NCBI GenBank assembly: GCA_905182855.1 | Contig: CAJJDA010000003.1 | Span: 1-52,595, forward strand | Source: a gamma proteobacterium HTCC2207 | GTDB taxonomy: Bacteria > Pseudomonadota > Gammaproteobacteria > Pseudomonadales > Porticoccaceae | DNA: 52,595 bases | Direction of reading: 5' to 3' | In this document: positions 17,045 through 52,595 of the stretch, one piece after another | Layout: every line of letters starts with the position of its first letter | Position numbering within the stretch: position 1 is the stretch's first letter | The notes under the pieces: model-generated | The model's database searches: none | What the model saw: the letters and a program-made list of their open reading frames with translations, nothing else | Told to the model about the DNA's origin: nothing | Position numbers and translations under genes: made by a program

Positions 17045-20000
17045 CTATGCCCCATCAATTGAATAGCGCCTCAGACTGTCATGTATCTCCAACCAGCGCT
17101 TTTTTAAGCGCTTTTCAGATACTGGCACACGGGTCTTGAGCTGCTGGGCAAATAATGACACACGATATTCCTCCAATAACCATTGAAAGTCCCAAATCGC
17201 CTGTTCTAGTTCATAGGTAAGTCGTTGCCCCTCAATACTTTTCAACGGCTCATAAAAATCCATAAGCTGGCCTATACAGTCGCGATCTCTAGCAATTTGC
17301 GAAACTAGCTTTTCCAGTCGGACCTGAATACCCTGAACCAATCTGGGGTACTGTCGAAGATTCTCACTACCTGCTGTAGACAAGGTCTTCACTGAAAAAA
17401 GCCAATTCACCTGTTGGTCAATGTCATCTTTAGCGTAGATCGCTTTGAGGCCCAACGAGCGCAGCTCCTTTTGGTGGTGATGTAATTGCGGTAAAACAGA
17501 CGCGACAATCATCGCCTGTTGCTGCGCGATATCAACTACGTTACCAATACCCGCTTGATAAGCGACATCAAAATCTCGTTGTCGTCGGATAACTTCGGTA
17601 TTTTTAAAGATCGCCTCATGAAAGCTGCTCAGGATTAAGGCATCAACCAGCTCTTCCCTACGCCCTATTGCAGCCGCCTTTAAGGCCAGTTCAGAGCCCT
17701 GCAGGAGGTTTTTAGTCAAGTACTTGACCTGTTCACGACCTTTTAACATCGCAAGCCGCAGCTGTCCCTCGCGGGTTACTTTGGCAGCCGCTAACGGATT
17801 ATCCAACACCTCAATTGCGACAGATTTCCCACAATCTCTCAAAGCCGGCCAAGCTTTTATTGTGATTTTGCCACGCTTAAGTTGCACTTCTTGAGGCAAC
17901 TCATCAAAATCCCAAGTCAAGATACCCTGACGCGAAATGGAATCGTCGGAGGCCTGCTGTTCCAGTCCGGCGCTGATCTGCTGCTTAAAGTCCCGCTGCA
18001 ACTGTTCTAACGTGCGTGCCATAGCAATGGTCTTACCCTCGTCATCTTGCAGCACAAAGTTCATGCAGTACCAGGGATCCAGTTTTTCCGCCTTCCAGTC
18101 CTCGGGACTAACGGAAATGCCGGTCTGTCGTTTTAGCTGCTCCGCAAGCACCTCGGTAATCGCTCGATCCTGGGCTCCCACATGCAACAGGATCTTGTCG
18201 ACATAGTCCGGCACCGGCACAAAGTGCCTTCTCGTCTGTTTGGGCAACGTTTTGATCAGGGCGATACATTTGTCCCGCAACATGCCTGGCACTAGCCATT
18301 CATAAAAATAACGCGGCAGCTGATGCAGCAAGGCCAGTGGAATGATTGCACTGACGCCGTCTTCCGCATGTCCCGGTTGAAAATGGTATCTCAACTCATA
18401 CTCAATGCCATCCCAGGTAATGCTTTCTGGAAACTGAGCCTCTTCGCCTTCGGCTAAGCCACGCAAGACCAAGGCATCTTTATTGATGCACAATAACTTG
18501 CTATTTTCCTGCTCCGCACTTTTTCGCCACTGTTCAAAACTCGTTAAATTGTATATACCCTCGGGGACACGCTCATCGTAAAAACTATAAATGACCTTTT
18601 GTTCGGCGAGCAGATCGCGCCGCCGAAAACGGTCCTCTAGTGCCTGCAGCTCCTCAACCAGCTTTTGGTTTTTTCGTCTTGGAGTTGCCCTTACCCCGAT
18701 AGCCCTCTTCCACCAGCGCCTGCTGTATGAAAACGGCTCGCGCTTCCACCGGTGCCACCTGTCCATAGACGGTGTTTTTACTCTCGACGATGGTCAGCCC
18801 AAATAACGTCTGACGTTCTTTGGCCATGACCTGACCAGCCTTTTGATGGTAAAAAGGCTCACTGTAGGTTCTTTTAACCAGATGACCCGCCAGCGATTCG
18901 AGCCAGTCCGAATCGATCTTGGCAACGTTTAATGCGTACTGTTTAGCCGTTTCCATCAATGAGCCCGCCATGATCCACTTCGGCGGTTTTTTACTCAGCC
19001 CTGAGCTGGGAAATATAAAGAATTTGCGATTTCTGGTACCTAAAAATTCCCATTTATCTTCTCTTATACCGACCTGCCCCAATAACCCAGATAGTATGGC
19101 TTGATGAATCCCTGCATACTCAGCCGGTTTATCATTGCTGGACAGTTTCAGTGATCGACAGACCGTATGCAGCTGATGGTGTAAATCACGCCATTCCTTC
19201 ATACGCAGAAATGATACATAGTTAGCGCGGCAGTACTTGCTGTACTGGTTGCCCGACAGAGCCTGCCTTCGCTCTTCAAAATGATGCCAGACATTCAACA
19301 GTGACATAAAGTCCGAATTTTCATCCTGCCATTGCTTATGGCACTGATCCGCAGCCTGTTGTTTGTCCGCAGGGCGCTCTCTGGGGTCCTGAATACTCAG
19401 CCCCGAGGTTATGATCATCACTTCTGCGAGTGAACCTGTTTTCGCGGCCTGAAGTATCATGCGTGAAAATCTTGGGTCCAATGGCAAAGCTACAAGCTTT
19501 CTGCCCAGCGCCGTTAACTTTCCCTTTGCCGTCACCGCCTGAAGCTCTTCGAGTAACTTAAAACCATCGTTGATCATCCGATTGTCTGGTGGATCGACAA
19601 AAGGGAATTCGCGTATATCACCCATATTAAGATCTAGCATCTTTAATATGACAGCGGCGAGGTTGGTACGTACAATTTCCGGATCGGTAAATTCTGGCCG
19701 GTTACTGTAATCATCTTCGGTATAGAGCCGGTAACAAACACCATTTCTAACGCGTCCACAGCGACCAGCACGCTGATTGGCACTGGCTTGAGAAATTGAT
19801 TCAATAGGGAGGCGCTGTACCTTGGTGCGGAAACTGTAGCGCGACAGCCGCGCACGTCCCGTGTCAATCACATAGCCGATACCTGGCACTGTTAACGACG
19901 TTTCTGCGACATTGGTGCTTAGAATAATCCTACATCCGCGGTGAGGTCTAAATATCTTAGCCTGTTCAGCAAGACTGAGTCTTGCATAGAGGGGTACGAC

Positions 20001-21035
20001 TTCAGTATGCGGCAACTGAGCTCGCTTGATGGCTAAATTAGCCTCTCGAATCTCCCTTTCACCACTCAGAAACACCAACACGTCACCAGCGGGTTGGTTG
20101 GCCTGAATATGTCTCAGGCATTCAATAATATTTTGATTTCGGTCCATGTCGAAATAATCTTCATTGCTATAGACGATTTCAACGGGAAATGTCCGACCAG
20201 ACACTTCGACTACAGGGGCATTATTAAAATGGCGGGAAAATTTTTCAACATCTATCGTGGCAGAGGTAATGATGACTTTCAGTTCAGGACGCTGGTCCAG
20301 AAGATTTTTAAGATAGCCCAGCAGAAAATCAATATTTAGGCTGCGTTCATGGGCCTCGTCGATAATCAAAGTATCGTATTTACTGAGGAAACGATCATGC
20401 TGAATTTCAGCCAACAAAATACCATCGGTCATCAATTTGATCAGGCTGTTGGGCGAACTCTTGTCGGAGAAGCGCACCTGATATCCCACCGTCTCCCCCA
20501 AGGGGGTTTTAAGCTCCTCGGCAATACGCGTGGCAACGGTGCGTGCCGCTAGCCTGCGTGGCTGAGTGTGACCAATAAGCCCCCTGACTCCGCGCCCCGC
20601 CTGCAAGCAGATTTTCGGTATCTGAGTTGTCTTTCCTGAACCCGTTTCACCCGCAATCACCACGACCTGATTATTCAGTATCAACTCGAGAATTTCTTCG
20701 GACCGGTTACTAACAGGGAGATCTGGGAAGTTAATTTGTGGGAGGCTCGCCCGACGTGTCGCAACCAAGTCCAGCGATCGCTGAACGGCCGAGGACCATT
20801 TTGGCCAGTCTTTTGATAGATCTTTGTCAGATGCGACTCGTCGCCTGAAATCCGTTAACTGGCGGCTCAGACGAAATAAATCTCGGCAGCTAACTGATTT
20901 AAAGAGCCAATCTTCCAACAGACCAAAATCTGTTGTTTTATTGGGGACTCTGCTGAGTAACTCCGACTCTGCGTTGGTGTTTGACGGCGACGACAACGGA
21001 CTATTCCCCGGTTTTTCGCCAGATACATTCACCAC
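17045..21035 (-). CDS. hrpA: ATP-dependent DEAH-box RNA helicase HrpA, frameshifted
   Basis: HrpA is a DEAH-box helicase involved in mRNA processing and ribosome rescue. The N-terminal 780 residues carry Walker A AGETGSGKTTQIP, IIDEAHERSLNIDFLL, the SAT motif (ITSATID) and the C-terminal QRAGRCGR motif. They read from GTG 21035 to a stop at 18654. The C-terminal HrpA-specific domain (DUF3418, about 550 aa) reads in another frame from KNQKLVEELQALEDRF on. The two frames meet at a run of six A (plus-strand T at 18669-18674). Five A would give SKTKNQKLVEEL and one 1329-aa protein, close to E. coli HrpA (1300 aa). Its first codons overlap dnaQ by 35 nt. An indel error or a real break are both possible. 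Confidence 0.9.
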
Positions 21036-37296: not shown

Positions 37297-40216
<2,920 letters not shown>

Positions 40217-40367: not shown

Positions 40368-40847
40368 ATGACTGTAAGAGACTTTAATACCAACGACTTA
40401 CGTAATGCACTGGGTAGTTTCGCCACAGGCGTCACAGTGATCACAGCGCTGGGCAAGAATGGCCAGAAAGTTGGCATGACCGCCAACAGCTTTAATTCGG
40501 TATCACTTGATCCGGCACTCGTGCTTTGGAGCATTGGCCGTGACTCAAACTGCTTTGAGGACTTTATTGCGGCTGAGGCCTATGCCATCCATATTCTGAG
40601 CGAGGACCAACAAGAACTATCCAATCTCTTTGCCCAAACTGGCTCCGATAGGTTTGCTGGGCTGGAAACTACCGAAGGGCTTTCTGGTGTACCCCTCCTT
40701 TCCAACTACAGCACATGCTTTCAGTGCCGCATTGAGCACCAATACGAGGGTGGCGATCATGTGATTCTGGTGGGTAAAGTACTAGAGTTTAGCGACAACG
40801 GCAGCAAGCCTCTGATTTTCCATCGCGGCGGTTACGGCGCTATTTGA
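40368..40847 (+). CDS. Flavin reductase family protein (HpaC-like)
   Basis: 159 aa with the flavin-reductase fold: FATGVTVITALGKNGQKVGMTA, SFNSVSLDPALVLWSIGRDSN and, C-terminal, EHQYEGGDHVILVGKVLEF with LIFHRGGYGAI. Such proteins reduce free FMN or FAD with NAD(P)H and pass it to a partner monooxygenase. A possible partner is the HpaB-family flavoenzyme at 43672-45201, on the opposite strand 2.8 kb away. It may be co-transcribed with fadH if the hairpin between them does not stop transcription. Partner unproven. Confidence 0.85.
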   Translation: MTVRDFNTNDLRNALGSFATGVTVITALGKNGQKVGMTANSFNSVSLDPALVLWSIGRDSNCFEDFIAAEAYAIHILSEDQQELSNLFAQTGSDRFAGLETTEGLSGVPLLSNYSTCFQCRIEHQYEGGDHVILVGKVLEFSDNGSKPLIFHRGGYGAI

Positions 40848-40865: not shown

Positions 40866-41453
40866 CTATAAACTAGTAACGATCTCTGCAACAGACATAA
40901 CATCTGCGTACTTAGCGTTTAAATCGAATAAATTGGCCTCATGCGCAGCCGGGTTTCTATCGCCCACAGCCTCTTTTGCAACCACCACCTGATAATTATT
41001 CTGTAGCCCATCCACGGCAGATGCCCGCACGCATCCGCTAGTAGTCAGCCCAGTGACCACTAATGAATCGACACCAAGCGCTCTGAGCTGCGCATCTAAG
41101 TCGGTCTTGTGAAAGGCGCTGGGCCAATGCTTCTCTATTAACGGCTCAGTCTCTAATCGATTCATGGCTGGATCTAAATCTACCCAACGAGAACCTCGCT
41201 GGAGAACATTTAGCGCGGGTACTTTATGACGGAATACCGTTGCCTGTTGATCATTATCATAGACTACAGTAGTAAAAAATATAGGTAGCCCGTTCTCGCG
41301 GAAGGCCAACAAAAGCTCAACATTAGCGGCAACCACCTCAGGACAATCGGTACCCAACGGACAGACTGAATCTGTAAAACCATTGATCATATCCACAACT
41401 AGCAACGCAGAATTTTCGGTTAGCCCAAGAGATTCGTTTTCGAGATTAGGCAT
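40866..41453 (-). CDS. Isochorismatase-family amidohydrolase (N-carbamoylsarcosine amidase-like)
   Basis: 195 aa from ATG 41453 (MPNLENESLGLTENSALL); the longer frame to 41513 adds an unlikely leader. The cysteine-hydrolase triad is D21 (LLVVDMINGFTD), K108 (IEKHWPSAF) and C141 (VTGLTTSGCVRASA). The spacing Lys-33-Cys equals that of N-carbamoylsarcosine amidohydrolase (K144/C177). Other members are nicotinamidase and maleamate amidase. With the hydantoinase genes at 48-52 kb, an N-carbamoyl or amide substrate is a fair guess but not proven. It converges on the flavin reductase gene, 18 nt away. Confidence 0.85.
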   Translation of the reverse strand: MPNLENESLGLTENSALLVVDMINGFTDSVCPLGTDCPEVVAANVELLLAFRENGLPIFFTTVVYDNDQQATVFRHKVPALNVLQRGSRWVDLDPAMNRLETEPLIEKHWPSAFHKTDLDAQLRALGVDSLVVTGLTTSGCVRASAVDGLQNNYQVVVAKEAVGDRNPAAHEANLFDLNAKYADVMSVAEIVTSL

Positions 41454-41605
41454 AATTTTATCCGCTTTTTTTAACATTAAAAAATAGCTTTTACTCAGAA
41501 TAAGAAAGAGCAATTTCCGTCATGACTGTCAGCCGTGTTACCAATACCTATTGAGAGATAACGTCAACGCTCAGGTGCCACTGAAATTAAGTATAATCTT
41601 GAGTT

Positions 41606-42463
41606 TTAAAAGGGCACCGATCTATCATTAGGAGGTAAAATAGTTGTTCGGTACATCAGCCTTTCGTACCCTCCGTCAAATGGCTCTCGCCTGTGCATAG
41701 TGCAAGCATTATCCCAAAGAAGTCCATCTCCAACGTTCCATTTATGTTTATAGACAAACTCTTTTTTGAGAGTCCAGTCAAACAATTGCTCTAGCAAGTC
41801 AGCGCTCTCAGTCTCGTCTATGCCAGCAATCGCAATAGTCATTCCGGGGCATAGATACAGAGCCTTTCGGCCCGTAACCGGATGCGTCCTAACGAGAGGC
41901 TGCGCGATGTTAGGCGTAAGATTAGTCTGCTTGCCACTGGTCTTAGTAGAGTACATGCTATTGAAATTATCATATGACTGAATAGCTTGGTGTCCGTCCA
42001 CCATATCTTTAAGCGCACGTGGCAGTCGCTCATAGGCTGACGTCATATCAGCAAAGAAAGTGCTACCTCCGTCTGGAGGAATTTTCACCGAATACAGCAA
42101 AGAACCCAGTGCCGGACGTGGAAGATATATCTGATCATAGTGCCACCCTACCTCTCCATCGGCCAACGCCCCAACAGGTTTACCATCTACATTAATATTT
42201 GATATCTGCAGAATTTCAGGATGAGTTTCGTTTAACCATTCTGATCTAACATGTGTTTCTAAGGATCCCAGTAATCGACTGAAGCCTACGAGTTCGTCTT
42301 TTCCAATATCTTGCTCACGGAATAGTAATATTCCATACCTATTCCAGAGCGCCTTAATTTGAGCTAGATCCTCGCTAGCCATCTCTCCAGAGAGCTTAAT
42401 ATCATAGATCTCTGCACCGAATGTATCTGATAGCGGACGAATTTTGAAACTCTTATTTAACAT
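41606..42463 (-). CDS. TauD/TfdA family 2-oxoglutarate-dependent dioxygenase
   Basis: 285 aa. The Fe(II) triad is H108-x-D110 (GWHYDQIY) and H257 (NACTMHRREPF). R268, 11 residues after H257, fits the 2-oxoglutarate carboxylate ligand. R272, 4 further on (YERLMYRTTI), is at the place of TauD Arg270, which binds the taurine sulfonate, so an anionic substrate is plausible. GGSTFFADMTSAYE matches the 2-oxoglutarate threonine region. These enzymes oxidise substrates such as taurine, 2,4-D, betaines or acyl-amino acids. Here it is probably the oxygenating step of the catabolic neighbourhood. Exact substrate unknown. Confidence 0.88.
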   Translation of the reverse strand: MLNKSFKIRPLSDTFGAEIYDIKLSGEMASEDLAQIKALWNRYGILLFREQDIGKDELVGFSRLLGSLETHVRSEWLNETHPEILQISNINVDGKPVGALADGEVGWHYDQIYLPRPALGSLLYSVKIPPDGGSTFFADMTSAYERLPRALKDMVDGHQAIQSYDNFNSMYSTKTSGKQTNLTPNIAQPLVRTHPVTGRKALYLCPGMTIAIAGIDETESADLLEQLFDWTLKKEFVYKHKWNVGDGLLWDNACTMHRREPFDGGYERLMYRTTILPPNDRSVPF

Positions 42464-42699
42464 ATAATCTAACCCTCGATAGTGATCGCCTGATAGTACG
42501 GACCAATGATAGCACCATTGATGGCTTATTCACAACTTGACACGCATCCGGTTCCCAGTAATAGACTCTATACGCAATCTTTAGTCATAATAAACGAAAA
42601 AATACTTAGGCTCACCCAGCAGAAATTAATGATGGACTCCTTAAATTACAAGAAAAATCCAATAATTAAACAACGAGAGATTATTTAGATTAGCAGTTT

Positions 42700-43613
42700 T
42701 TAAAATACAAGCACTACTAATGACAGGCTAATTAAACAGGCTCCAAGCAGCTCTAGTCGATGTACCTTTTCTTTAAAAAAAAGAACACTAAACAGTAAAC
42801 TAAATACAACTTCTATTTGACCCAACATGCGAACCTGAGCTACCCCCATAATACTAAATGCGATAAACCACAAAACAGTCGTAACCGCCGCTATAGCCCC
42901 TGCAACCGATGAGAGACGCCAGCTACGCAGACAGGCGACAAGTTCCGTGGGGCGCCATATCCTAAGGGCGATACCCATAATAATGGTCTGAATTAGTACC
43001 GCAACACTTGCCGTTAACATAGCCCCCTCAATAATATTGAGCCCAATCAAAGCCTCCATCGCAATCCTGATAGAAGACTGAACACGAGCCTAAACATAGT
43101 CCAGCTAATAAACCGAGTGACACCGAGGCTCCACTAAAACGACGACGACCAATGTCGCCGAAGGGTACTGACTGGCCAATGAAAAAAATTGCGCAAAAGC
43201 CGATAGTTATAGCAATTACAAGATTTAGATCAGGTACAAATGAGAGTAGCAAGATCTCAAAAAATGCAGCCTGGACAGCGTCCGTTTTCGAAAGGGCGAT
43301 AGACGTCATGAAGTTACGGCTCTCGAATGCCAAACCTAAAAAAATGGTAAAAAGTATTTGTACACAACTAGCGAGTACAACCCAAAAAACAAATACCGAA
43401 TGAATCTCGACAGTTAATAGCTTGGACCAGCCGACAACAAAAAGGAGTAGTAGGAACGAGATAGGAAGCCCATAGAGGAAACGAACAAAAGCGCTACCAT
43501 AAACGCCTAGATCAACTGCGGGCGTTTTTTTGAATAAGAGAGCGCAATGACTGCCCAAGGGCAGCTAAGACAGTGACCAAAACCCATAGATATGGTCCTA
43601 GTAAATCTGTCAT
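42700..43613 (-). CDS. EamA/DMT-family transporter, broken by two frameshifts
   Basis: Three reading frames together make one ten-helix drug/metabolite transporter. The N-terminus starts at ATG 43613 (MTDLLGPYLWVLVTVLAALG). It changes frame at an A7 run (plus-strand T at 43525-43531), continues as KTPAVDLGVYGSAFVRFLYG, and changes again near CC 43066-43067 (SVFYQ to IAMEALIGLNIIEGAM). Deleting one base at each gives a continuous 303-aa protein, the normal EamA size. The end has the typical AQVRMLGQIEVVFSLLFSVL and FFKEKVHRLELLGACLI segments. It is a likely importer or exporter for the catabolic genes around it. Whether the gene is dead or the sequence wrong cannot be decided here. Confidence 0.82.
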
Positions 43614-43671
43614 CGCGCCAGCAAGACATGATTAACCATTCGCAAAAGCGCCAGCACCCTAATCTCAGGCT

Positions 43672-45201
43672 CTAAGTGTCTTTGCCTGAGACTAAGCCGT
43701 CACCCTGACAGCCTTTAGCGCAACAACGTCCGGGCTGACGGTCTACTTTTATCCCCTTGCCCATTTCCAATGCGCCCCGGTCAAACAGAGCTTGAACCAG
43801 ATCGGAACGAGCTTCAATATCATAATTTCTTAGAATCTCTAGCTTCATAGCTTCTGGAGAGCCACCGCCATGGAGGCTAATAACTGAGTACCAACCACCA
43901 GTCTCAGAGGCTGTAAGATCCTCAATAAATCGCGAGACATTGGCGCGATGCTCATAGGGCACGTCTGGATGCCCCCGCAGTACATCGCTTAGAATGGCAG
44001 ATGTAACAGGATTATGGTCCTCCTCAGGACCGGGTAATGCTACGACTAGACCGCCAGACACATCATGAGCCAACCGATGCATATCATAAATTTGATTAGC
44101 TAAAAGTAATTTACCGATATTAGCATAAATTTGATCTGGCCTAAAATTACCGGCGGCATCATGAACTCCCATAGTCGAGGACGCGATACCGCAAGCATAA
44201 AATCCTTCAGTTATCTTAATCAACTCCACCATTTTTTCTCTTAGATGAGGCACTTTCAAATAGTCGAGCCCATTAGCTTGCGCCATCATTGCCCCTGCAC
44301 CGATCAACAAGTCACCGAAACCCGCACGCGCTCCAATACAACTATGGCGATGATGCGTAGCATAATTTGTAGTCATCAGATGTGCTTCTTCGGTTTCCCC
44401 GTCGATGAAAACACGATCATAGGGTACAAATACATTATCGAAATGGGCAACGGCCACCGCCTGAGCAAATTTGGCACTAAATTTTGCGGCTGGATTGCCA
44501 GGTCGACCAGCCGGTCTGGACACTATTGTGATGCCGGCAGCATCGATGGGAACGGCACAAGCTACCGCGAAGTCTTTCTCATGCTTATCCATTCGCCTGC
44601 AAGGCATGACCAACAACTCATGCATATATGGGCCACCCGTAATGATGGCCTTAACACCCGAAATAACAATTCCATCAGAACGGCGCTCGATGACATGCAC
44701 ATAACTGTCTGGTTGATCTTGCTCCGAAGGCCGTTTTGACCGGTCACCCTTGCCATCAGTCATGGCGATGCCAATGGAGAGATCATTGGTCTGAGCGTAC
44801 TGAATGTAGTCTAGTAGCCGTGCATGGTTCTCACCACCATAAGTTTCATTTATCAGCCACGTCGCTTCAAAGAGTGCGTTAAACGCATCATGAGTGAGAT
44901 AACGTTGCGCACAACCAGCAACTTTGCAGGTCAAACGCACAGCTTCCAGCTTATCTTGTAAATCTGCGCGACTACGATTGATGGCTAAAAATCTATTGGT
45001 CGGCTTACCATCCAAACCTGACGTTGTCATGGTCGATTTTAAATCATCTACAAGAGCAAAATCGTATGTAATACCAGTGGCATTGATACCTGGTTCAAAC
45101 CGCGGCTCATCCGCGACAGACTCAATTAAACTCCCACCCAAGTAGATACGAGGCTTCAACGCCCGCAAAGACTCTCGGTATTCTTCTGCTGACTTCATCA
45201 T
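43672..45201 (-). CDS. 4-hydroxyphenylacetate 3-hydroxylase (HpaB) family flavoprotein
   Basis: 509 aa from ATG 45201 (MMKSAEEYRESLRALKPRIY), chosen for AAGGAT 7 nt upstream. HpaB-type N- and C-terminal domains (acyl-CoA-dehydrogenase-like fold) are seen: LTHDAFNALFEATW, MTDGKGDRSKRPSEQ, VISGVKAIITGGPYMHELLV, GFGDLLIGAGAMMAQ and VPHLREKMVELIKITEGFYA. The family includes FADH2-dependent phenol hydroxylases and the Fe-S 4-hydroxybutyryl-CoA dehydratase. The dehydratase needs a Cys-x3-Cys pair in the region of C97; here C97 is present but the second position is Tyr101. The tail has an unusual RCCAKGC cluster (C493, C494, C498). A flavin-dependent oxygenation is therefore somewhat more likely. 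Confidence 0.8.
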   Translation of the reverse strand: MMKSAEEYRESLRALKPRIYLGGSLIESVADEPRFEPGINATGITYDFALVDDLKSTMTTSGLDGKPTNRFLAINRSRADLQDKLEAVRLTCKVAGCAQRYLTHDAFNALFEATWLINETYGGENHARLLDYIQYAQTNDLSIGIAMTDGKGDRSKRPSEQDQPDSYVHVIERRSDGIVISGVKAIITGGPYMHELLVMPCRRMDKHEKDFAVACAVPIDAAGITIVSRPAGRPGNPAAKFSAKFAQAVAVAHFDNVFVPYDRVFIDGETEEAHLMTTNYATHHRHSCIGARAGFGDLLIGAGAMMAQANGLDYLKVPHLREKMVELIKITEGFYACGIASSTMGVHDAAGNFRPDQIYANIGKLLLANQIYDMHRLAHDVSGGLVVALPGPEEDHNPVTSAILSDVLRGHPDVPYEHRANVSRFIEDLTASETGGWYSVISLHGGGSPEAMKLEILRNYDIEARSDLVQALFDRGALEMGKGIKVDRQPGRCCAKGCQGDGLVSGKDT

Positions 45202-45282
45202 TAAATAATCCTTTAATTTTTCCCTAGGATATAGCATGATTAATCAAATATCCATCGTTAGTCCGTACTTAAGGAGCTTTAA

Positions 45283-46470
45283 ATGTCCACCGAAAAAAAA
45301 TCATCGTCCCCCCGAATACCAACATCTGCATTAGCGAATCTCAAGGTATTAGATCTAGCTACTTTTATTGCCGGTCCATACTGTGCAACATTTCTTGCAG
45401 AATTTGGCGCCGATGTTGTAAAAGTTGAGCTGCCTGGCACCGGAGATCCAGTGAGGAAGTTTGGCACAATGACTGACTGTGGTGATACCTTGGTCTGGTT
45501 GAGTGAAGGCCGCAATAAGCGCTCTATTGAACTAGACCTCAGATCAAAAGAAGGTAGCGATACTCTCAAAAAGCTAGTAGCAGAAGCCGATGTACTCTGC
45601 GAAAATTTTCAGGTAGGGACTCTCGAAAAATGGGGGCTGGGAGCCGATGTTCTTACAGGCTATCAACCCAAATCTAATTATTGCTAGGGTAACGGCCTAT
45701 GGGCAGACTGGCCCATATAAGGATCGACCTGGATTTGGTCGCATTGCCAATGCGTTTAGCGGGATATCGTATCTGTGCGGAGAATCGGAATCAGCACCCG
45801 CGTCGCCGGGAACAGCAACACTCTCAGACTACATGTCTGGCCTGTATGCGGCACTAGGGGTGTTAGTAGCCTCTACGCTAGGCCGCAAATCGGACGCGGC
45901 CAAGTTATTGATATAGGTCTCTATGAAAGTGTTTTTCGTATTCTCGACGAACTGGCGCCTGCGTTTGCAAAAAGCGGCTTCGTACGCGAGCGCATGGGTG
46001 CAGGCACCGTCAATGCAGTACCGCACAGCCATTATCCGACACAGGATGGGCTCTGGGTCGCAATCGCCTGCACCAACGACAAAATTTTTGAACGTCTAGC
46101 CAAGGTGATGGATCGCGAAGATGTCTCTGGCGATGGCCCCTACGGCACTATCCAAAAGCGAGAAGCTAGTAGAGGTGCTGTAGATGCTTTTGTTACCAAC
46201 TGGACAACAGGACATACTCGCGAAGCTATACTGCTCCATTGTGCGGCGGGTGAGGTCCCCTGTGGCCCAGTTTATAGCATCGATGAAATTTTCGAAGACC
46301 CACAGTACCAGGCACGCGAGAATCTGGTCACGCTTAACGACAGCCGCGCTGGCCCAATAACTATGCCCAACGTATGTCCGCGTCTTTCGGATACCCCCGG
46401 AACTGTTAAGTGGGCAGGTAGAGCTCTAGGAGCCGACACTGCCGAGGTGCTCAAAGACTGGCTGGGTTAA
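45283..46470 (+). CDS. CaiB/BaiF family CoA-transferase (class III), broken by two frameshifts
   Basis: Three frames combine into one class III CoA-transferase. The first starts at ATG 45283 with AAGGAG upstream ([49 protein letters not shown]). After TT 45650-45651 it continues as [20 protein letters not shown], and carries the catalytic Asp in [12 protein letters not shown]. After CC 45870-45871 it continues as [20 protein letters not shown] to the end. One base removed at the first site and one added at the second gives 395 aa, the family norm. It would move CoA between carboxylic acids, activating the pathway intermediate. Its stop is 1 nt from the convergent CitE-like gene. Confidence 0.88.
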
Positions 46471-46471
46471 G

Positions 46472-47383
46472 CTAGGCCTCCTGCAACCGGGCCTCTGCGA
46501 CTACCGCATAGGCCTTTTCGACAATCGGATAGTCAACAAAATAGCCGTTTACCTGTATCGATGCCGATCCATCACGCTCTGCCGCCTCAAAAGCGGCAAT
46601 CACTGCTTTTGCCTTTGCTATTTCAGCAGCGCTTGGCATAAATGATTGATTAGCGAGCGCAACTTGCTTTGGGTGTATTAATAATTTACCTTGAAAGCCA
46701 AACTTAACTCCAGTCGCTACTGACTCTGCATAGCTATCGGTATCATCGAGCTGAATATGCACGGTATCAATCGGCGGCTGCAAGTCATGAGCCCGCGCTT
46801 TGAGGATCATACGACCACGGACGTAGCCAAGCTCAGTTTCATCAGCACTCCATTTAATACCAACATCGCGAGTAAAGTCCCCCGCACCAAACGAGAAGCG
46901 CTTCATTCGCCCTGGTTTTGCACAAAGCCTTTCTAAGTTATTCATACCATAGCCAGTTTCGATAATTGGCATCAAATCAATGGCTCCAACCTCAAGGCCC
47001 CGCTCACGTTCATACTCACTAAGAGCCCAGTCGATCGCATATAATTCTTCGGGACGCTCCAACTTAGGCAAGACTATGCCATCGAGCCAAGGACCAACAA
47101 TAGCCTCGAGATCACGAAAACAGAAGCCAGTATCGATGGCATTGATGCGCACATAACCAAGCCCTTCGTGATCCTTTTTGAGCGCTTCCACTACCGTTTT
47201 TCTGGCCGCGACTTTATCTCGATCAGCACAAGCGTCCTCTAAATCTAAAATCACAGCATCTGCGCCATAGCCAAATACTTTATTAATTTTTTCTATATGA
47301 TTACCTGGCACAAATAGGAAGGTACGTAGACGGCGCATACCACTCGCGACTTTTTTTTCCTGAGAGTTACTCACTCTTATCAT
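46472..47383 (-). CDS. HpcH/HpaI (CitE-like) CoA-ester lyase
   Basis: 303 aa. TIM-barrel lyase of the citrate lyase beta/malyl-CoA lyase family: RTFLFVPGNHIEKI, ADAVILDLEDAC, GIVLPKLERPEEL, PIIETGYGM and FSFGAGDFTRDVG. E142 and D169 are the expected Mg ligands. Such stand-alone members cleave or form C-C bonds in CoA esters such as malyl-, citramalyl- or methylmalyl-CoA. With the convergent CaiB-type gene it suggests that an acid is activated as a CoA ester and then split. The ATG at 47383 overlaps the gntR stop by 4 nt, but GGAG directly touches it; GTG at 47374 is better spaced and may be the true start. Confidence 0.9.
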   Translation of the reverse strand: MIRVSNSQEKKVASGMRRLRTFLFVPGNHIEKINKVFGYGADAVILDLEDACADRDKVAARKTVVEALKKDHEGLGYVRINAIDTGFCFRDLEAIVGPWLDGIVLPKLERPEELYAIDWALSEYERERGLEVGAIDLMPIIETGYGMNNLERLCAKPGRMKRFSFGAGDFTRDVGIKWSADETELGYVRGRMILKARAHDLQPPIDTVHIQLDDTDSYAESVATGVKFGFQGKLLIHPKQVALANQSFMPSAAEIAKAKAVIAAFEAAERDGSASIQVNGYFVDYPIVEKAYAVVAEARLQEA

Positions 47384-48111
47384 CTCCTATAACTTAAGTT
47401 AAATGAATAGCTAAAACGACTGGCAGGATGTTCACTCACAGATACTTCTAATAATAGACCCTGTTCATCTCGATAACGCCTGACCATTATTAAAGAGGGG
47501 CTCTTAGACTCAACGCCCAGTAAATCCGCGCGCTCATTACTTAAACTGCCTGCTAGAACTTCAGCATGGATCTCCAGAGCTCTAACATCAAAATGGTCCT
47601 CGAGAAGCTTAAACGCCGGCTTATTACTCTTGCCAATTAGGTTCCGTATATTTTTATAGATTCTAGGGACATAAATTTCAGTTAAGCATAGGGGGACTTT
47701 CTTACTTGTGTTACGGATAGTCTCAATCTTTGTCCATTCGCTTCCTACATCACATTGTAAAAAAGACGCTAACGACACATCCGCAACAATATTACTGCTT
47801 TTAATGACTTCTAGCTTAGTGTTCTCAGGGTATTGAAAGAGCTCCTCAACAGACTGTATTTCTTGAACTATCAACTCCACAGGCTTTCGCGCGATTACGA
47901 TAGTGCCGAAGCGCCTCCTTCGAGAAATCATGCCACGCTTCTGTAAGTCATCTAAGGCTGAGCGAACGGTAAAGCGGCTGACCCCATATTCTTCAGCGAG
48001 CGCCTGCTCAGACGGGAGCTGATCACCCACATTCCAGACGCCACTGGAGATTGTCGCCATCATATTTTCAGAAATTTGTTGGTGTCGCGCAATAAAAGGT
48101 TTTTTTTCCAT
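47380..48111 (-). CDS. GntR/HutC family transcriptional regulator (UTRA domain)
   Basis: 243 aa. The N-terminal winged HTH (about 8-75) reads SGVWNVGDQLPSEQALAEEY then GVSRFTVRSALDDLQKRGMI. The C-terminal UTRA ligand domain (about 95-240) has the family's CLTEIYVPRIY, AEVLAGSLSNERADLLGV and SLIMVRRYRDEQGLLLEVSV. HutC-type regulators sense small-molecule substrates or intermediates of the pathway they control. It overlaps the CitE-like gene and is divergent from hyuAB, so it likely governs both directions. Ligand unknown. Confidence 0.92.
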   Translation of the reverse strand: MEKKPFIARHQQISENMMATISSGVWNVGDQLPSEQALAEEYGVSRFTVRSALDDLQKRGMISRRRRFGTIVIARKPVELIVQEIQSVEELFQYPENTKLEVIKSSNIVADVSLASFLQCDVGSEWTKIETIRNTSKKVPLCLTEIYVPRIYKNIRNLIGKSNKPAFKLLEDHFDVRALEIHAEVLAGSLSNERADLLGVESKSPSLIMVRRYRDEQGLLLEVSVSEHPASRFSYSFNLSYRR

Positions 48112-48164
48112 TAGTAAATTAAATCTCCCTTGATTTATTAGTCCAGATCATTGAGTATATTACA

Positions 48165-48205
48165 TTAGATCTAAAACAATAAGTAAAATTGTTCGTCATT
48201 ATAAT
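48165..48205. promoter_or_regulatory. gntR-hyuA divergent control region
   Basis: Contains palindrome TTAGATCTAA (48165-48174), inverted repeat AACAAT-N7-ATTGTT (48175-48180 and 48188-48193), and TATAAT at 48200-48205 as the hyuA -10 element. The inverted repeat covers the place of the -35 box, consistent with repression by the divergent GntR protein. The true operator is not proven. Confidence 0.4.
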
Positions 48206-48229
48206 CTTTGCCCTAAAAGAGGAATTGAT

Positions 48230-50302
48230 ATGTTTAAAGTTGGTGTTGATGTGGGTGGTACCTTCACGGATGTGCTGTTGGTCGATACAGAAAATTCTAA
48301 GTTTTTCACGTCGAAAGTCCCATCTACTCCAGAAGATAGTTCCATAGGAGTTCTAGCAGGTATTCTCAAAGCCTGCCAAGCAGCTAATGTCAGTATTAGT
48401 GATATTGAAGCTGTCACACATGGTACTACGGTCGCGACTAATGCAGTTCTCACAGAGAGAGGCGCAAAAGTCGGGCTTATAACCACCAAGGGATACAGGC
48501 AGGTATTGCAAATTGCCCGCTCGTATGTTCCCGGAGGATTGGGCGGCTGGCTCTACTACCAGAAGAAAGCTCCGCTCGCGCCACTTAACTGCACGATTGA
48601 AATAGAGGAGCGAACTGGCGGCGATGGCACAATTGTCAGGGAACTCGACGAAGATCAACTGAGAACCGCTTTAAAGTCTCTGCAGGGCAAAGGAATCGAG
48701 GCTATCACTGTCTGCCTTATTAACAGTTTTGCCAATGATCAGCACGAACAAAGAACAAGAGAAATTGTCGCCGAGGTAATGCCAGGCTTACCAATATCGA
48801 TTTCTAGTGAAGTGATTCCGGAACTTCAGGAATATGAAAGAGCTATTACAACCGTAGCTAATTCTTATGTCCGACCTGAGGTGGAGAAATATATTTCTAA
48901 CCTCCAAACTGAATTTGATAAGCAGATGAATGGCGCCAGCCTTTCGATCCTGCGCTCCGACGGTGGTTTAGCTACAGCCAATGCAGCAATGAACTTTCCT
49001 GTTTACCTATTGATGAGCGGTCCTGCGGGCGGTGTGTCAGGTGCGATATGGGTCGGAAAGCAGGCCGGCATCAACAATATCATTACCTTTGACATGGGTG
49101 GGACGTCCACCGATGTTGCATTGATTGAAAATGGCGAGGCTCTGGTGCGCAGAGAAACCACAGTTGGTGATATCACGGTTCGAGCTAGCGCACTGGATGT
49201 GCGGTCAATTGGAGCTGGAGGAGGATCAATTGCCCATGTGCCAGAACTGACTAGAGCCTTAAGAGTGGGCCCTGAATCAGCTGGTGCGCAGCCAGGTCCC
49301 GCGGCTTATGATAAGGGGGGTTCTGAACCAACGGTGACTGACGCTAATGTCGTCCTGGGGTACCTTCCGCAGCACCAAAAACTCGGCGGAGATATGAATA
49401 TTCGCAGGGATCTTGCGGAACAGGCAGTTCAAAAGGTTGCCGATGCAATGGGTCTCGGACTCCATCAGGCCGCGGAAGGCATCGTAAAGATTATTAATGA
49501 ACGTATGTTTGGTGCGGTGCGGCTAGTTTCGGTGGAGAAAGGCTATGATCCCCGTGATTTTTCACTAATGGCTTTTGGTGGCGCAGGTCCACTCCATGCG
49601 AACGCTTTAGGGCAATTAACCCAAGCCTGGCCCGTAATAATACCACCTGGACCAGGAATTCTCTGTGCCTATGGTGATGCCACAACAAGGCTAAGAAATG
49701 AAGCCTCCAAAACATTAATCGTTACTATGAAAAATGCCGACAGCTCAAAAATAGCTGCTGAGCTTGATCTGTTAGAAGAAGCCGCAGCAAACGGTTTACT
49801 AGCCTCCGGTGCCAATGAGACTATTGGCTTGAACAAAGCCGCCCTCGAATGCTCACATGAAATTGATGTTCGTTATTCCGGACAAGGTCTGGTGTTAAGT
49901 ATTCCCGTTTCGCTGGAACACATAAAGGCTGGAAACTACAGTTCAATCTCCAATGACTTCGATGAGCTGCATGAGAAATTATTTACATTCCGAATCGATG
50001 CGGATAAAGAGTTTGTGAATTTACGCTCTATCGCTTTAGGGCCGCCATCGGATATAGAGCTAGTAGAATCGACGGTAAGCTCTAATGGCACTGTTGAGGA
50101 CGCATTAGTTACTGACCATGAAATTTTCTATGACGGTACCATGCATGCAGCCAAAGTCTACGACCGTGCGAAACTTGAGCCCGGTCATATAGTCTTTGGG
50201 CCCGCAGTGATTACCGAAATGGATTCAACTTCTGTTGTATTCCCTGGCTATCAAGCTGATGTTGATAGTAAAAGAAATCTGTTGCTGTCGCCGACACACT
50301 AA
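48230..50302 (+). CDS. hyuA: Hydantoinase/oxoprolinase subunit A (HyuA)
   Basis: 690 aa. ATP-binding ASKHA-type subunit: VGVDVGGTFTDVLLVDTENS at the N-terminus, EAVTHGTTVATNAVLTERGA, the second nucleotide motif TFDMGGTSTDVALI near 288, and GAGGGSIAHV. Together with HyuB it hydrolyses a cyclic amide or carboxylates a substrate at the cost of ATP; relatives are N-methylhydantoinase, 5-oxoprolinase, caprolactamase and acetone/acetophenone carboxylase. AGAGGA precedes the ATG. hyuB follows after 15 nt. It is divergent from gntR. Which reaction applies cannot be told by sequence alone. Confidence 0.93.
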   Translation: MFKVGVDVGGTFTDVLLVDTENSKFFTSKVPSTPEDSSIGVLAGILKACQAANVSISDIEAVTHGTTVATNAVLTERGAKVGLITTKGYRQVLQIARSYVPGGLGGWLYYQKKAPLAPLNCTIEIEERTGGDGTIVRELDEDQLRTALKSLQGKGIEAITVCLINSFANDQHEQRTREIVAEVMPGLPISISSEVIPELQEYERAITTVANSYVRPEVEKYISNLQTEFDKQMNGASLSILRSDGGLATANAAMNFPVYLLMSGPAGGVSGAIWVGKQAGINNIITFDMGGTSTDVALIENGEALVRRETTVGDITVRASALDVRSIGAGGGSIAHVPELTRALRVGPESAGAQPGPAAYDKGGSEPTVTDANVVLGYLPQHQKLGGDMNIRRDLAEQAVQKVADAMGLGLHQAAEGIVKIINERMFGAVRLVSVEKGYDPRDFSLMAFGGAGPLHANALGQLTQAWPVIIPPGPGILCAYGDATTRLRNEASKTLIVTMKNADSSKIAAELDLLEEAAANGLLASGANETIGLNKAALECSHEIDVRYSGQGLVLSIPVSLEHIKAGNYSSISNDFDELHEKLFTFRIDADKEFVNLRSIALGPPSDIELVESTVSSNGTVEDALVTDHEIFYDGTMHAAKVYDRAKLEPGHIVFGPAVITEMDSTSVVFPGYQADVDSKRNLLLSPTH

Positions 50303-50317
50303 TATTTGGAGTTAAAA

Positions 50318-52198
50318 ATGCACTCGAAAATTATTCAGACAAATAATACCCCTTTTAATCGTGTCAGTGTCGATCCGATAATCTTGGACATCATTGAAAA
50401 TTCACTCAGAAATGCTCGTGAGCAAATGGATGCTACTCTTTTTAGAACCGCTATGTCCCCGGGTATTCGTGAGCAGGGTGATGCGTTTCCTATGATTGCT
50501 AATGTTGATGGAAAAATGGTAGTGGGACAATTCGGTTCCTTCATCCATGGCTTTTTAGAGGGCTTTGACGGGGAACTTGAAGAGGGTGATATGATCTTCA
50601 CCAATGATCCATATAGCTGTGGAGGCGCTATTAGCCACCTCAATGACTATTTGGTGATTAAACCAATCTTCAAGGATGGTCGACATATGGCATGGGCGGC
50701 TCACTTTGGTCATATGACCGATGTCGGTGGTCGTGCTCCAGGATCGATGCCCAATGAGGCACGTGAGATCTTTGAGGAGGGAGTTGCTTTTCCACCGGTC
50801 AAAATATACCGCAAAGGTGAGTTGCAAGACGACATCATCAAAATTGCTATCAGAAACTCGCGTATGCCTCACTGGAATCAAGGTGACTTTAAGGGCGTGA
50901 TCGCAGCATGTAACGTCGCCGAGCGTCAGTGTATTGAAATGGCGGATCGATTTGGCGACGATGTACTTTTCTCAGCATTAGACGAACTTCTAGACCGCAA
51001 CTGTCGCGCGATGCGACAACTTATAATGGATACGATACCTGAAGAAAAGCAAACATTTGAGGACTACATCTGCGATGACGCGTTGGGAGGAGGGCCATAT
51101 AAAATCAGATGCTCAATGTGGCGTGAAGGAGAAGTTGTTATCTTTGATTTTGATGGAACAGATCCACAGAGTCCAGGATCGATAAACTTTCTCATGAATG
51201 AAGAAATGTTCAAAATGTTTTGTGGCACATTTATGATTTCTGCTTTTGATCCACAAATATTATTTAATGACGGTTTCTATGATTATATAGATGTTCGAAT
51301 ACCAGACGGCTGCTTACTCAAGCCCAATAGGCCTGCGGCACTGTCTTGCCGAACGCACGCTCTCGGGCGTATTTTTGATGTCCTAAGCGGCCTTCTCGGC
51401 CAAGGTAATCCTGACTTTCTTTGTGGTGCTGGATTTTCGGATAGCCCCCACTTTATGTATTCGGGTCATGATAAAAATGGAGAATGGTACCAACTTTATC
51501 AGATTGGCTTCGGTGGCATACCCGCTCGACCAATGGGCGATGGACCCGATGGTCACTCTCTATGGCCTGGCTTCAAAAATGTACCCAATGAATTTCTTGA
51601 GGCCTATTTCCCACTGCGCATCGAGACGTTTGAAAGCATCACTGACTCGGGTGGTGCCGGATACCATCGTGGAGGAAATGGTATCAGAATGGCTTATCAT
51701 TTCTTGGAGGATGGTGAGATCTCAATACATGACGATCGCTGGCTAACCTATCCTTGGGGCGTCAATGGCGCCTTACCGGGTCAGCGAAGTACAAAAGAAA
51801 TTACTCGCGCTGATGGTAGCACTGAATTTTTACCCTCGAAATGTGATCGCGTAGCAGTACAAAACGGCGATATTCTTTACTTTAATACCTGGGGTGGTGG
51901 AGGCGTTGGCGAACCCTTAACCAGAGAGCCTGCTCGCGTTCTAGAGGATGTACTTGCCGGATTAGTTAGCTTAGAGGCGGCGAATAAAAACTATGGGGTT
52001 GTGATTACCAACGACATCGTTGATGAAATCCAAACGACTAGATTACGCAAAGAGCAAATGGATGGGAAGCCAATAACCGACAAATTATTTAACTTCGGCG
52101 GTGATGTAGAAGAGATTAGAGCACGATGTTTAGCAGAAACCGGAATTGAGCCGCCCAAAGCACCTGACTTCTCAAAAGTTAAGCGTGCGGCTCGATAA
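50318..52198 (+). CDS. hyuB: Hydantoinase/oxoprolinase subunit B (HyuB)
   Basis: 626 aa from ATG 50318 (MHSKIIQTNN), 8 nt after GGAG; the frame's earlier TTG overlaps that GGAG. Family segments: DPIILDIIENSLRNAREQMD, MSPGIREQGDAFPMI, GDMIFTNDPYSCGGAISHLN, WAAHFGHMTDVGGRAPGSMP, and the C-terminal DSGGAGYHRGGNG and DILYFNTWGGGGVGEPLTRE. These carry the metal/substrate site of the HyuB chain. It pairs with HyuA. In related enzymes small extra subunits may be needed; none is seen before the window ends. Confidence 0.93.
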   Translation: MHSKIIQTNNTPFNRVSVDPIILDIIENSLRNAREQMDATLFRTAMSPGIREQGDAFPMIANVDGKMVVGQFGSFIHGFLEGFDGELEEGDMIFTNDPYSCGGAISHLNDYLVIKPIFKDGRHMAWAAHFGHMTDVGGRAPGSMPNEAREIFEEGVAFPPVKIYRKGELQDDIIKIAIRNSRMPHWNQGDFKGVIAACNVAERQCIEMADRFGDDVLFSALDELLDRNCRAMRQLIMDTIPEEKQTFEDYICDDALGGGPYKIRCSMWREGEVVIFDFDGTDPQSPGSINFLMNEEMFKMFCGTFMISAFDPQILFNDGFYDYIDVRIPDGCLLKPNRPAALSCRTHALGRIFDVLSGLLGQGNPDFLCGAGFSDSPHFMYSGHDKNGEWYQLYQIGFGGIPARPMGDGPDGHSLWPGFKNVPNEFLEAYFPLRIETFESITDSGGAGYHRGGNGIRMAYHFLEDGEISIHDDRWLTYPWGVNGALPGQRSTKEITRADGSTEFLPSKCDRVAVQNGDILYFNTWGGGGVGEPLTREPARVLEDVLAGLVSLEAANKNYGVVITNDIVDEIQTTRLRKEQMDGKPITDKLFNFGGDVEEIRARCLAETGIEPPKAPDFSKVKRAAR

Positions 52199-52265
52199 TT
52201 GATAATAATCATGTCTGCGGTCGCCCCTTGAGGATAAGACATAGCAGTAATATTGGGAGTAACTC

Positions 52266-52595
52266 ATGAGCGTTTTAAATATAAAAGGTGATGCGCAAGA
52301 GGCGTTTAATGTACTAAAAAACGGTGGTACATGTATCTTACCAATGGATGTTGGTTATGCGTTTCTTGGCGAGTCATTTGATTCTGTGATGCATATTTTT
52401 AATACTAAAAAGCGAGCAGACACTAAATATAATGCTGTAATTGGTAATATGAATCACCATAAGGCACTACATGTAGTTGGCACTCGCGGCGCTGAGATAG
52501 TTGAAGCCATAGTTGATGATTATGATTTGCCTCTTGGAATTATCGCCCCATGCAACCCAAAACACCCGTTATTTAATAGCATCAGTCAAGAGCTT
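52266..52595 (+). CDS. YrdC/Sua5-like protein, 3' end cut by the window edge
   Basis: 110 codons are present and the frame is open at the window end. ATG 52266 has TGGGAG 6 nt upstream. The sequence (EAFNVLKNGGTCILPMDVGY, then MHIFNTKKRADTKYN and PLGIIAPCN) follows the Sua5/YciO/YrdC plan: a helix and gain-of-phosphate-like turn, the KKR segment that contacts the nucleotide, and a later strand. The usual PTDTVYGLG is replaced by PMDVGYAFLG, so it is divergent and probably not the housekeeping threonylcarbamoyl-AMP synthase. It lies 67 nt after hyuB and is probably in the same operon. YrdC domains handle carbamoyl-adenylates, which would suit N-carbamoyl chemistry; this is inference. Confidence 0.65.
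   Translation, partial: MSVLNIKGDAQEAFNVLKNGGTCILPMDVGYAFLGESFDSVMHIFNTKKRADTKYNAVIGNMNHHKALHVVGTRGAEIVEAIVDDYDLPLGIIAPCNPKHPLFNSISQEL

Follow-up and report, generated by a model that had tools for sequence, protein, structure and literature searches.

The genes at one end of this contig probably break down a nitrogen-containing ring compound, and much of the set that they form is found again, as a real neighbourhood, in bacteria of distant lineages. One member, which a first-pass annotation had called an HpaB-family flavoenzyme, belongs to a clearly separate and apparently unstudied branch of its flavin enzyme family, judged by its sequence. The window analysed here is the entire contig C3, 52,595 bases of a 1.64-Mb genome that is 76% complete. 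Profile searches with Pfam and NCBIfam bore out the families previously named between 40866 and 52198, although the EamA and CaiB genes proved to be frameshifted and the YrdC-like gene incomplete. On the reverse strand lie an isochorismatase-family amidase (40866–41513), a TauD-type 2-oxoglutarate dioxygenase in which H108-Y-D and H257 are present (41606–42463), an EamA transporter (42700–43558) and the HpaB/AbfD-superfamily flavoprotein (43672–45237). These are followed by a CaiB-type CoA-transferase of family III on the forward strand (45283–46470), and by a CitE/malyl-CoA-lyase-like C–C lyase (46472–47383) and a HutC-type GntR regulator with GntR and UTRA domains (47380–48111), both on the reverse strand. 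HyuA, the ATP-dependent hydantoinase/oxoprolinase subunit (48230–50302), HyuB, the metal-site subunit (50306–52198), and a YrdC-like gene cut by the contig end (52266–52595) complete the set on the forward strand. A flavin reductase matching PF01613, a gene of the genus and a possible electron donor, lies just beyond the range 40866–52595 of the first-pass annotation (40368–40847, forward strand).

Much of the set recurs well outside the window. A scan of genome contigs placed the HpaB-like gene at 36 loci, and at 20 of these (L002–L019, L036 and L037) it is accompanied by parts of the set. The loci come from Porticoccaceae, Cellvibrionales, PS1-clade and other alphaproteobacteria, sphingomonads and one Flavobacteriaceae bin (L004). 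CitE and CaiB are each found at 18 of the 20 and the HutC-type GntR gene at 16; EamA is also among the members that recur beside the HpaB-like gene. TauD or a luciferase-like monooxygenase is present at 19, a count in which L013 is scored from a contig-edge piece and L017 from its extension, and L003 ends too early. HyuA, at 51–82% identity, was found in all 12 genomes searched out of the 20, once in two pieces of 58% and 42% (G491), and in 10 of the 12 it shares a contig with HpaB. The exceptions are L016 and L019; in L019 HpaB and HyuA are on different contigs, and the flank examined there gave no CaiB or GntR match. YrdC-like and MmgE/PrpD genes come after HyuAB at six of the 20 loci (L002, L005, L007, L009, L011 and L036) and were not seen there in the sphingomonad flanks examined, and at 1e-8 nothing in the relatives' 36 loci matches the window's flavin reductase. 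Because it recurs across classes, the neighbourhood is more than chance. The recurrence at 20 of 36 loci supports the original proposal of a single catabolic neighbourhood for a nitrogenous compound, and the co-occurrence seen in other genomes disposes of the concern that these genes might never be found together elsewhere.

The remaining 16 loci of the branch lie outside the set, in other or unassigned contexts. A TetR gene adjoins the branch gene in L021, L022, L029 and L033, an FAA hydrolase and a PLP decarboxylase accompany it in L026–L028 and L030, pyrophosphatases are near it in L023–L025 and a multicopper oxidase in L032 and L034. The surroundings in L020, L031 and L035 have no assigned type, and in L020 a single neighbour, DsbA-like, is shared with the sphingomonad set. 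The branch also stands beside a divergent TetR gene in L089–L095, with an AidB-type acyl-CoA dehydrogenase adjacent in L021, L089 and L094. The loci L026–L028 and L030 are from gammaproteobacterial bins and also encode a 381-aa protein without a Pfam match at 1e-8.

The broken reading frames are likely to be assembly errors. EamA consists of two open reading frames in different frames (42700–43059 and 43028–43558), and CaiB is broken by two frameshifts (45283–45687 and 45775–46470), through which a tblastn frameshift check passed without flagging any break. Relatives, L002 and L005 among them, have both genes intact. An assembly error is the likely cause since other genes of this genome are disrupted as well: the OYE gene (38193–40216) is frameshifted relative to congeners, a distant hrpA-like RNA helicase gene (17051–20744) is frameshifted relative to three congener regions, and a second CaiB gene, on contig C4, is also split. 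We set aside decay of the locus in view of the breaks in hrpA and in the second CaiB gene. The OYE is of the BaiCD/mycofactocin type, and its pieces are 82–94% identical to counterparts in seven congener regions. Split genes occur in relatives too, namely EamA in L036 (11604–12505), the TonB gene beside L037 (L071:15303–17859) and HyuA in the L014 genome (G491, contig C267).

From the gene families, the conservation of the set and the motif positions described below, we infer a substrate class, an order of steps and a mode of regulation. We give evenly balanced credence to the reading that these genes form a regulon for the catabolism of a cyclic ureide or imide, that is, a hydantoin-like compound, with a carboxylic side chain. 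The compound would be taken up by a TonB receptor, present in relatives, and by EamA, and oxidized by TauD, or by the luciferase-like monooxygenase in other lineages, perhaps at a C–N or C–S bond. HyuAB would open the ring with ATP, and the amidase would take off the N-carbamoyl or amide nitrogen. CaiB would then form a CoA ester, which the HpaB/AbfD-like flavoprotein may alter by radical dehydration or isomerization, or by oxygenation, and CitE would cleave the product to acetyl- or propionyl-CoA and a 2-oxo acid. The HutC-type GntR protein would govern the promoters of TauD, CaiB/HpaB and HyuAB. In the part of the literature that our search covered, no described pathway contains the whole set, as had been stated from the outset.

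HyuAB, the amidase and a racemase of the sphingomonad cluster point to ureide or imide hydrolysis, going by their nearest relatives. N-methylhydantoinase is the nearest solved relative of both HyuA (1.1e-132) and HyuB (1.8e-74). According to the consulted part of PMC8453981, A subunits of hydantoinases/oxoprolinases carry the ATP motifs DxGGT, DxGGT and GxxPGP and B subunits the metal residues D-H-D-H. HyuA has the three motifs from residues 7, 288 and 352 (DVGGT, DMGGT and GxxPGP), and all four Asp-His-Asp-His residues of HyuB align to D41, H99, D102 and H124 of 6yra_B, with the numbering counted on the alignment. Both features are shared with caprolactamase CapAB, as far as that part of the paper describes it, but the window proteins score 521 of 1000 bits for CapA and 220 of 1000 for CapB and have other neighbours. 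The amidase has its Asp-Lys-Cys triad, and the numbering given earlier, D21-K108-C141, is correct if the protein starts at the 21st codon, an internal Met. Its nearest solved relative is N-carbamoylsarcosine amidohydrolase (1.5e-38), followed by 3ot4/3uao, labelled putative isochorismatase. The six matches listed for the racemase are hydantoin, allantoin and aspartate racemases.

CaiB and CitE, by the same kind of comparison, point to cleavage of a CoA-bound dicarboxylate. The best NCBIfam profile for the intact L002 CaiB is succinate–glutarate CoA-transferase, and the nearest solved relative of CitE is malyl-CoA lyase; CitE is assigned at family level only, as it scores 201 of 443 for citE and 141 of 375 for RipC. 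HyuA, HyuB, CaiB and the amidase likewise score under the NCBIfam equivalog cut-offs. The comparison already drawn with the N-methylhydantoin/N-carbamoylsarcosine route is backed by the nearest solved relatives of HyuAB and the amidase, but here these enzymes are found with CaiB, CitE, TauD, HpaB-like and YrdC-like genes. The creatinine route as such was set aside, the likeness being at enzyme level only. The Rut pyrimidine pathway resembles the set in its isochorismatase amidase, flavin reductase and, for some relatives, luciferase-like monooxygenase, but the scores are weak: 44.8 of 378 bits for RutB, 75.9 of 255 for RutF and, for an L009 protein, 53.7 of 498 for RutA.

The HpaB-like protein matches HpaB Pfam domains, but its nearest solved relatives are 1U8V (1.4e-94) and 6VJR (1.9e-90), followed by a monooxygenase at 9.9e-35; solved dehydratases thus come ahead of solved HpaBs by about 59 orders of magnitude in E-value. 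Its predicted model gives a TM-score of 0.71 by query length against 1U8V with a large rmsd (17.7), and has a pLDDT of 75.3, with residues 399–423, 431–459 and 488–521, including a CCxxGC tail, below 50. The label of a strict HpaB monooxygenase is not supported; by sequence and model the protein is closer to 4-hydroxybutyryl-CoA dehydratase. AbfD (1U8V) is its best match in sequence and fold, and equivalents of AbfD C99 and H292 are retained, but C103 is replaced by Tyr, C299 by Ala and E455 by Ile, and the protein has its own C104, C300 and CCxxGC tail. We take C99, C103, H292 and C299 to be the cluster ligands of AbfD, residues and numbers that agree with the aligned 1U8V row; two of these four positions are kept in the window protein, and the C103 and C299 positions are Tyr and Ala in all 29 aligned rows of the branch. 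C104, C109, Y113, H296, C300 and A303 are invariant in the same 29 rows, and all 27 rows that extend to the tail have it as G[RKQ]CCxxGC; five further branch members agree with this pattern. AbfD-type controls keep the C99/C103/H292/C299-type residues in eight of eight, and C104, C300 and the tail in none.

The branch is also rare and sharply bounded in the genomes sampled. A search of 398 genomes of the phylum, that of the window included, at a cut-off of 1e-50 found it in eight, at 891–971 bits, with the next listed match at 210. Among 199 genomes of one sphingomonad family it occurs only in the centre genome, and the next match scores 382.

The Pfam matches would suit an ordinary two-component flavin monooxygenase with the reductase at 40368 as its partner, a gene that lies five genes from the HpaB-like gene and is the sole PF01613 match found in the 76%-complete genome. 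We nevertheless consider this somewhat unlikely. The reductase is a genus gene, present in 31 of 33 congeners searched, whereas a close HpaB match was found in none of 49 (one short match at 3.5e-4), which lowers any reading that depends on the reductase. The wide E-value advantage of the dehydratases also speaks against it, as does the position of the HpaB active-site His, presumably H142 of the Thermus HpaB enzyme, which is Ile here.

A common near-palindrome argues for one regulon, strongly in a sphingomonad and moderately in the window. The operator-like sites, to which no strand is assigned, lie upstream of TauD (42493–42506), between CaiB and the HpaB-like gene (45258–45271) and between GntR and HyuA (48138–48151). 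L010 carries one and the same 14-mer, TTGGTCCAGACCAA, at two places, ahead of GntR and in the CaiB–HpaB gap. L037 has three sites with at most two mismatches against 0.03 expected, a number that none of 100 shuffles reached, and one of the three falls within the 5' end of the amidase match. L009 has six matches to the strict consensus against 1.81 expected (4 of 100 shuffles), and L002 has five to a degenerate pattern against 0.94. The window sites come from the consensus scan; the only intergenic site that an initial palindrome scan gave there lies ahead of the flavin reductase. The best window sites score 13/14 before TauD, 13/14 between CaiB and HpaB and 12/14 between GntR and HyuA, which 1.0%, 0.3% and 0.7% of 300 random stretches reach, and only the first and last are independent, the degenerate letters having been chosen from sphingomonad, L005 and window CaiB–HpaB sites. 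Neither the window (3 matches against 4.04 expected) nor L011 (3 against 1.95) has an excess of the strict sphingomonad consensus. With the degenerate pattern the window has 7 matches against 2.90 expected (1 of 100 shuffles), palindromes being counted on both strands and the pattern being derived partly from the window's own CaiB–HpaB site. PS1-type loci (L005, L006, L011 and L036) score 11/14 at CaiB–HpaB and GntR–HyuA, as do 4–12% of random stretches. At the level of sequence, the presence of the motif in both halves of the set would argue against the suspicion, raised at first, that the two are under unrelated control. A second palindrome, of the TTGTATAC type, lies between CaiB2 and an FCD regulator in L005 (13450–18270), and more weakly between TauD and TonB; perhaps it marks a second regulon.

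The two ends of the set may differ in origin. We compared seven congener regions, picked among the best flavin-reductase matches and with genes named by tblastn. In four, the flavin reductase is followed by the amidase, TonB, HyuB, HyuA, HMGL and CaiB2, and HpaB is missing; in the remaining three, neither amidase nor HyuAB stands beside the reductase. A HyuAB module that lacks HpaB indicates that the parts can act apart. The window amidase is 70–81% identical to the amidases of these four modules, while its HyuA is 55–56% identical to theirs compared with 82% to that of L002. The window thus seems to combine a native amidase end with an HpaB–HyuAB module of the L002 type, and this module may have been transferred into the lineage.

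Two separate pathways could accordingly lie side by side: an amidase/flavin-reductase/OYE set native to the genus, and an acquired module for dicarboxylate/CoA chemistry that includes HyuAB. The close resemblance of the amidase to those of HpaB-less congener modules, and the lack of a close HpaB match in all 49 congeners, fit such a division. We regard it as unlikely, however, as the relatives that do bear HpaB have HyuAB and isochorismatase amidases too, and the motif spans both halves. Very improbable, in our view, is the breakdown of a substituted maleimide or bilin-type compound, in which HyuAB would open the imide and the amidase act on the maleamate, followed by an isomerase, a hydratase (MmgE/PrpD), CaiB, and CitE or HMG-lyase; the second-best amidase match, 3ot4/3uao, which we take to be maleamate amidase, and the MmgE/PrpD, HMGL, second CaiB and TonB genes in relatives' clusters would favour it, but the six matches listed for the racemase include no maleate isomerase. 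Nothing was found that points to a betaine, one of the substrates first suggested, and an ergothioneine-type hydantoin-propionate route gained no support from the literature search.

The YrdC-like gene raises a further possibility for the ureide or imide pathway. It runs off the contig with 110 codons remaining, and this piece by itself has no Pfam or NCBIfam match and is absent from the genome's PF01300 matches; the genome has two full PF01300 genes besides it, located on contigs C5 and C9. Matches of the full-length relatives to Sua5/YrdC are weak: the one in L005 scores 29.2 bits against a Pfam cut-off of 25.1, but 26.2 of 123.2 for TIGR00057. At a cut-off of 1e-20 a relative is found in two of the 398 phylum genomes, that of the window included, and the predicted model, built from six rows, has a pLDDT of 39.8, too low for a fold comparison. 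Another relative (38%) lies in a different family of the class, at L048:9114–9767, with an isochorismatase about 9 kb off; no HyuAB was found near it in that genome (G294) at 1e-8, and 3 of the 10 open reading frames scanned there have Pfam matches, the others being possibly in wrong frames. The YrdC family uses bicarbonate. Caprolactamase CapAB requires it as well, according to the consulted part of PMC8453981, which makes a link between the YrdC-like protein and HyuAB worth considering. A bolder combined proposal, which we hold to be improbable, is that the HpaB-like branch is a new Fe–S or other metal flavoenzyme whose cluster has two of its ligands shifted to adjacent positions (C104/C300 for C103/C299), with the CCxxGC tail taking part as well, and that it performs radical chemistry on a CoA ester in an undescribed cyclic-ureide pathway. 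In this proposal the YrdC-like protein would not be a tRNA enzyme but would assist a bicarbonate-using HyuAB by activating carboxy or carbamoyl groups.

If the pathway proposed here is correct, Porticoccaceae-related gammaproteobacteria, PS1-clade alphaproteobacteria and sphingomonads would share an unrecognized route for nitrogen-containing ring compounds, and a branch annotated as 'HpaB' would offer a new flavin or metal chemistry open to test. The conservation of the set also narrows the substrate classes to try on hosts such as Novosphingobium to a short list.
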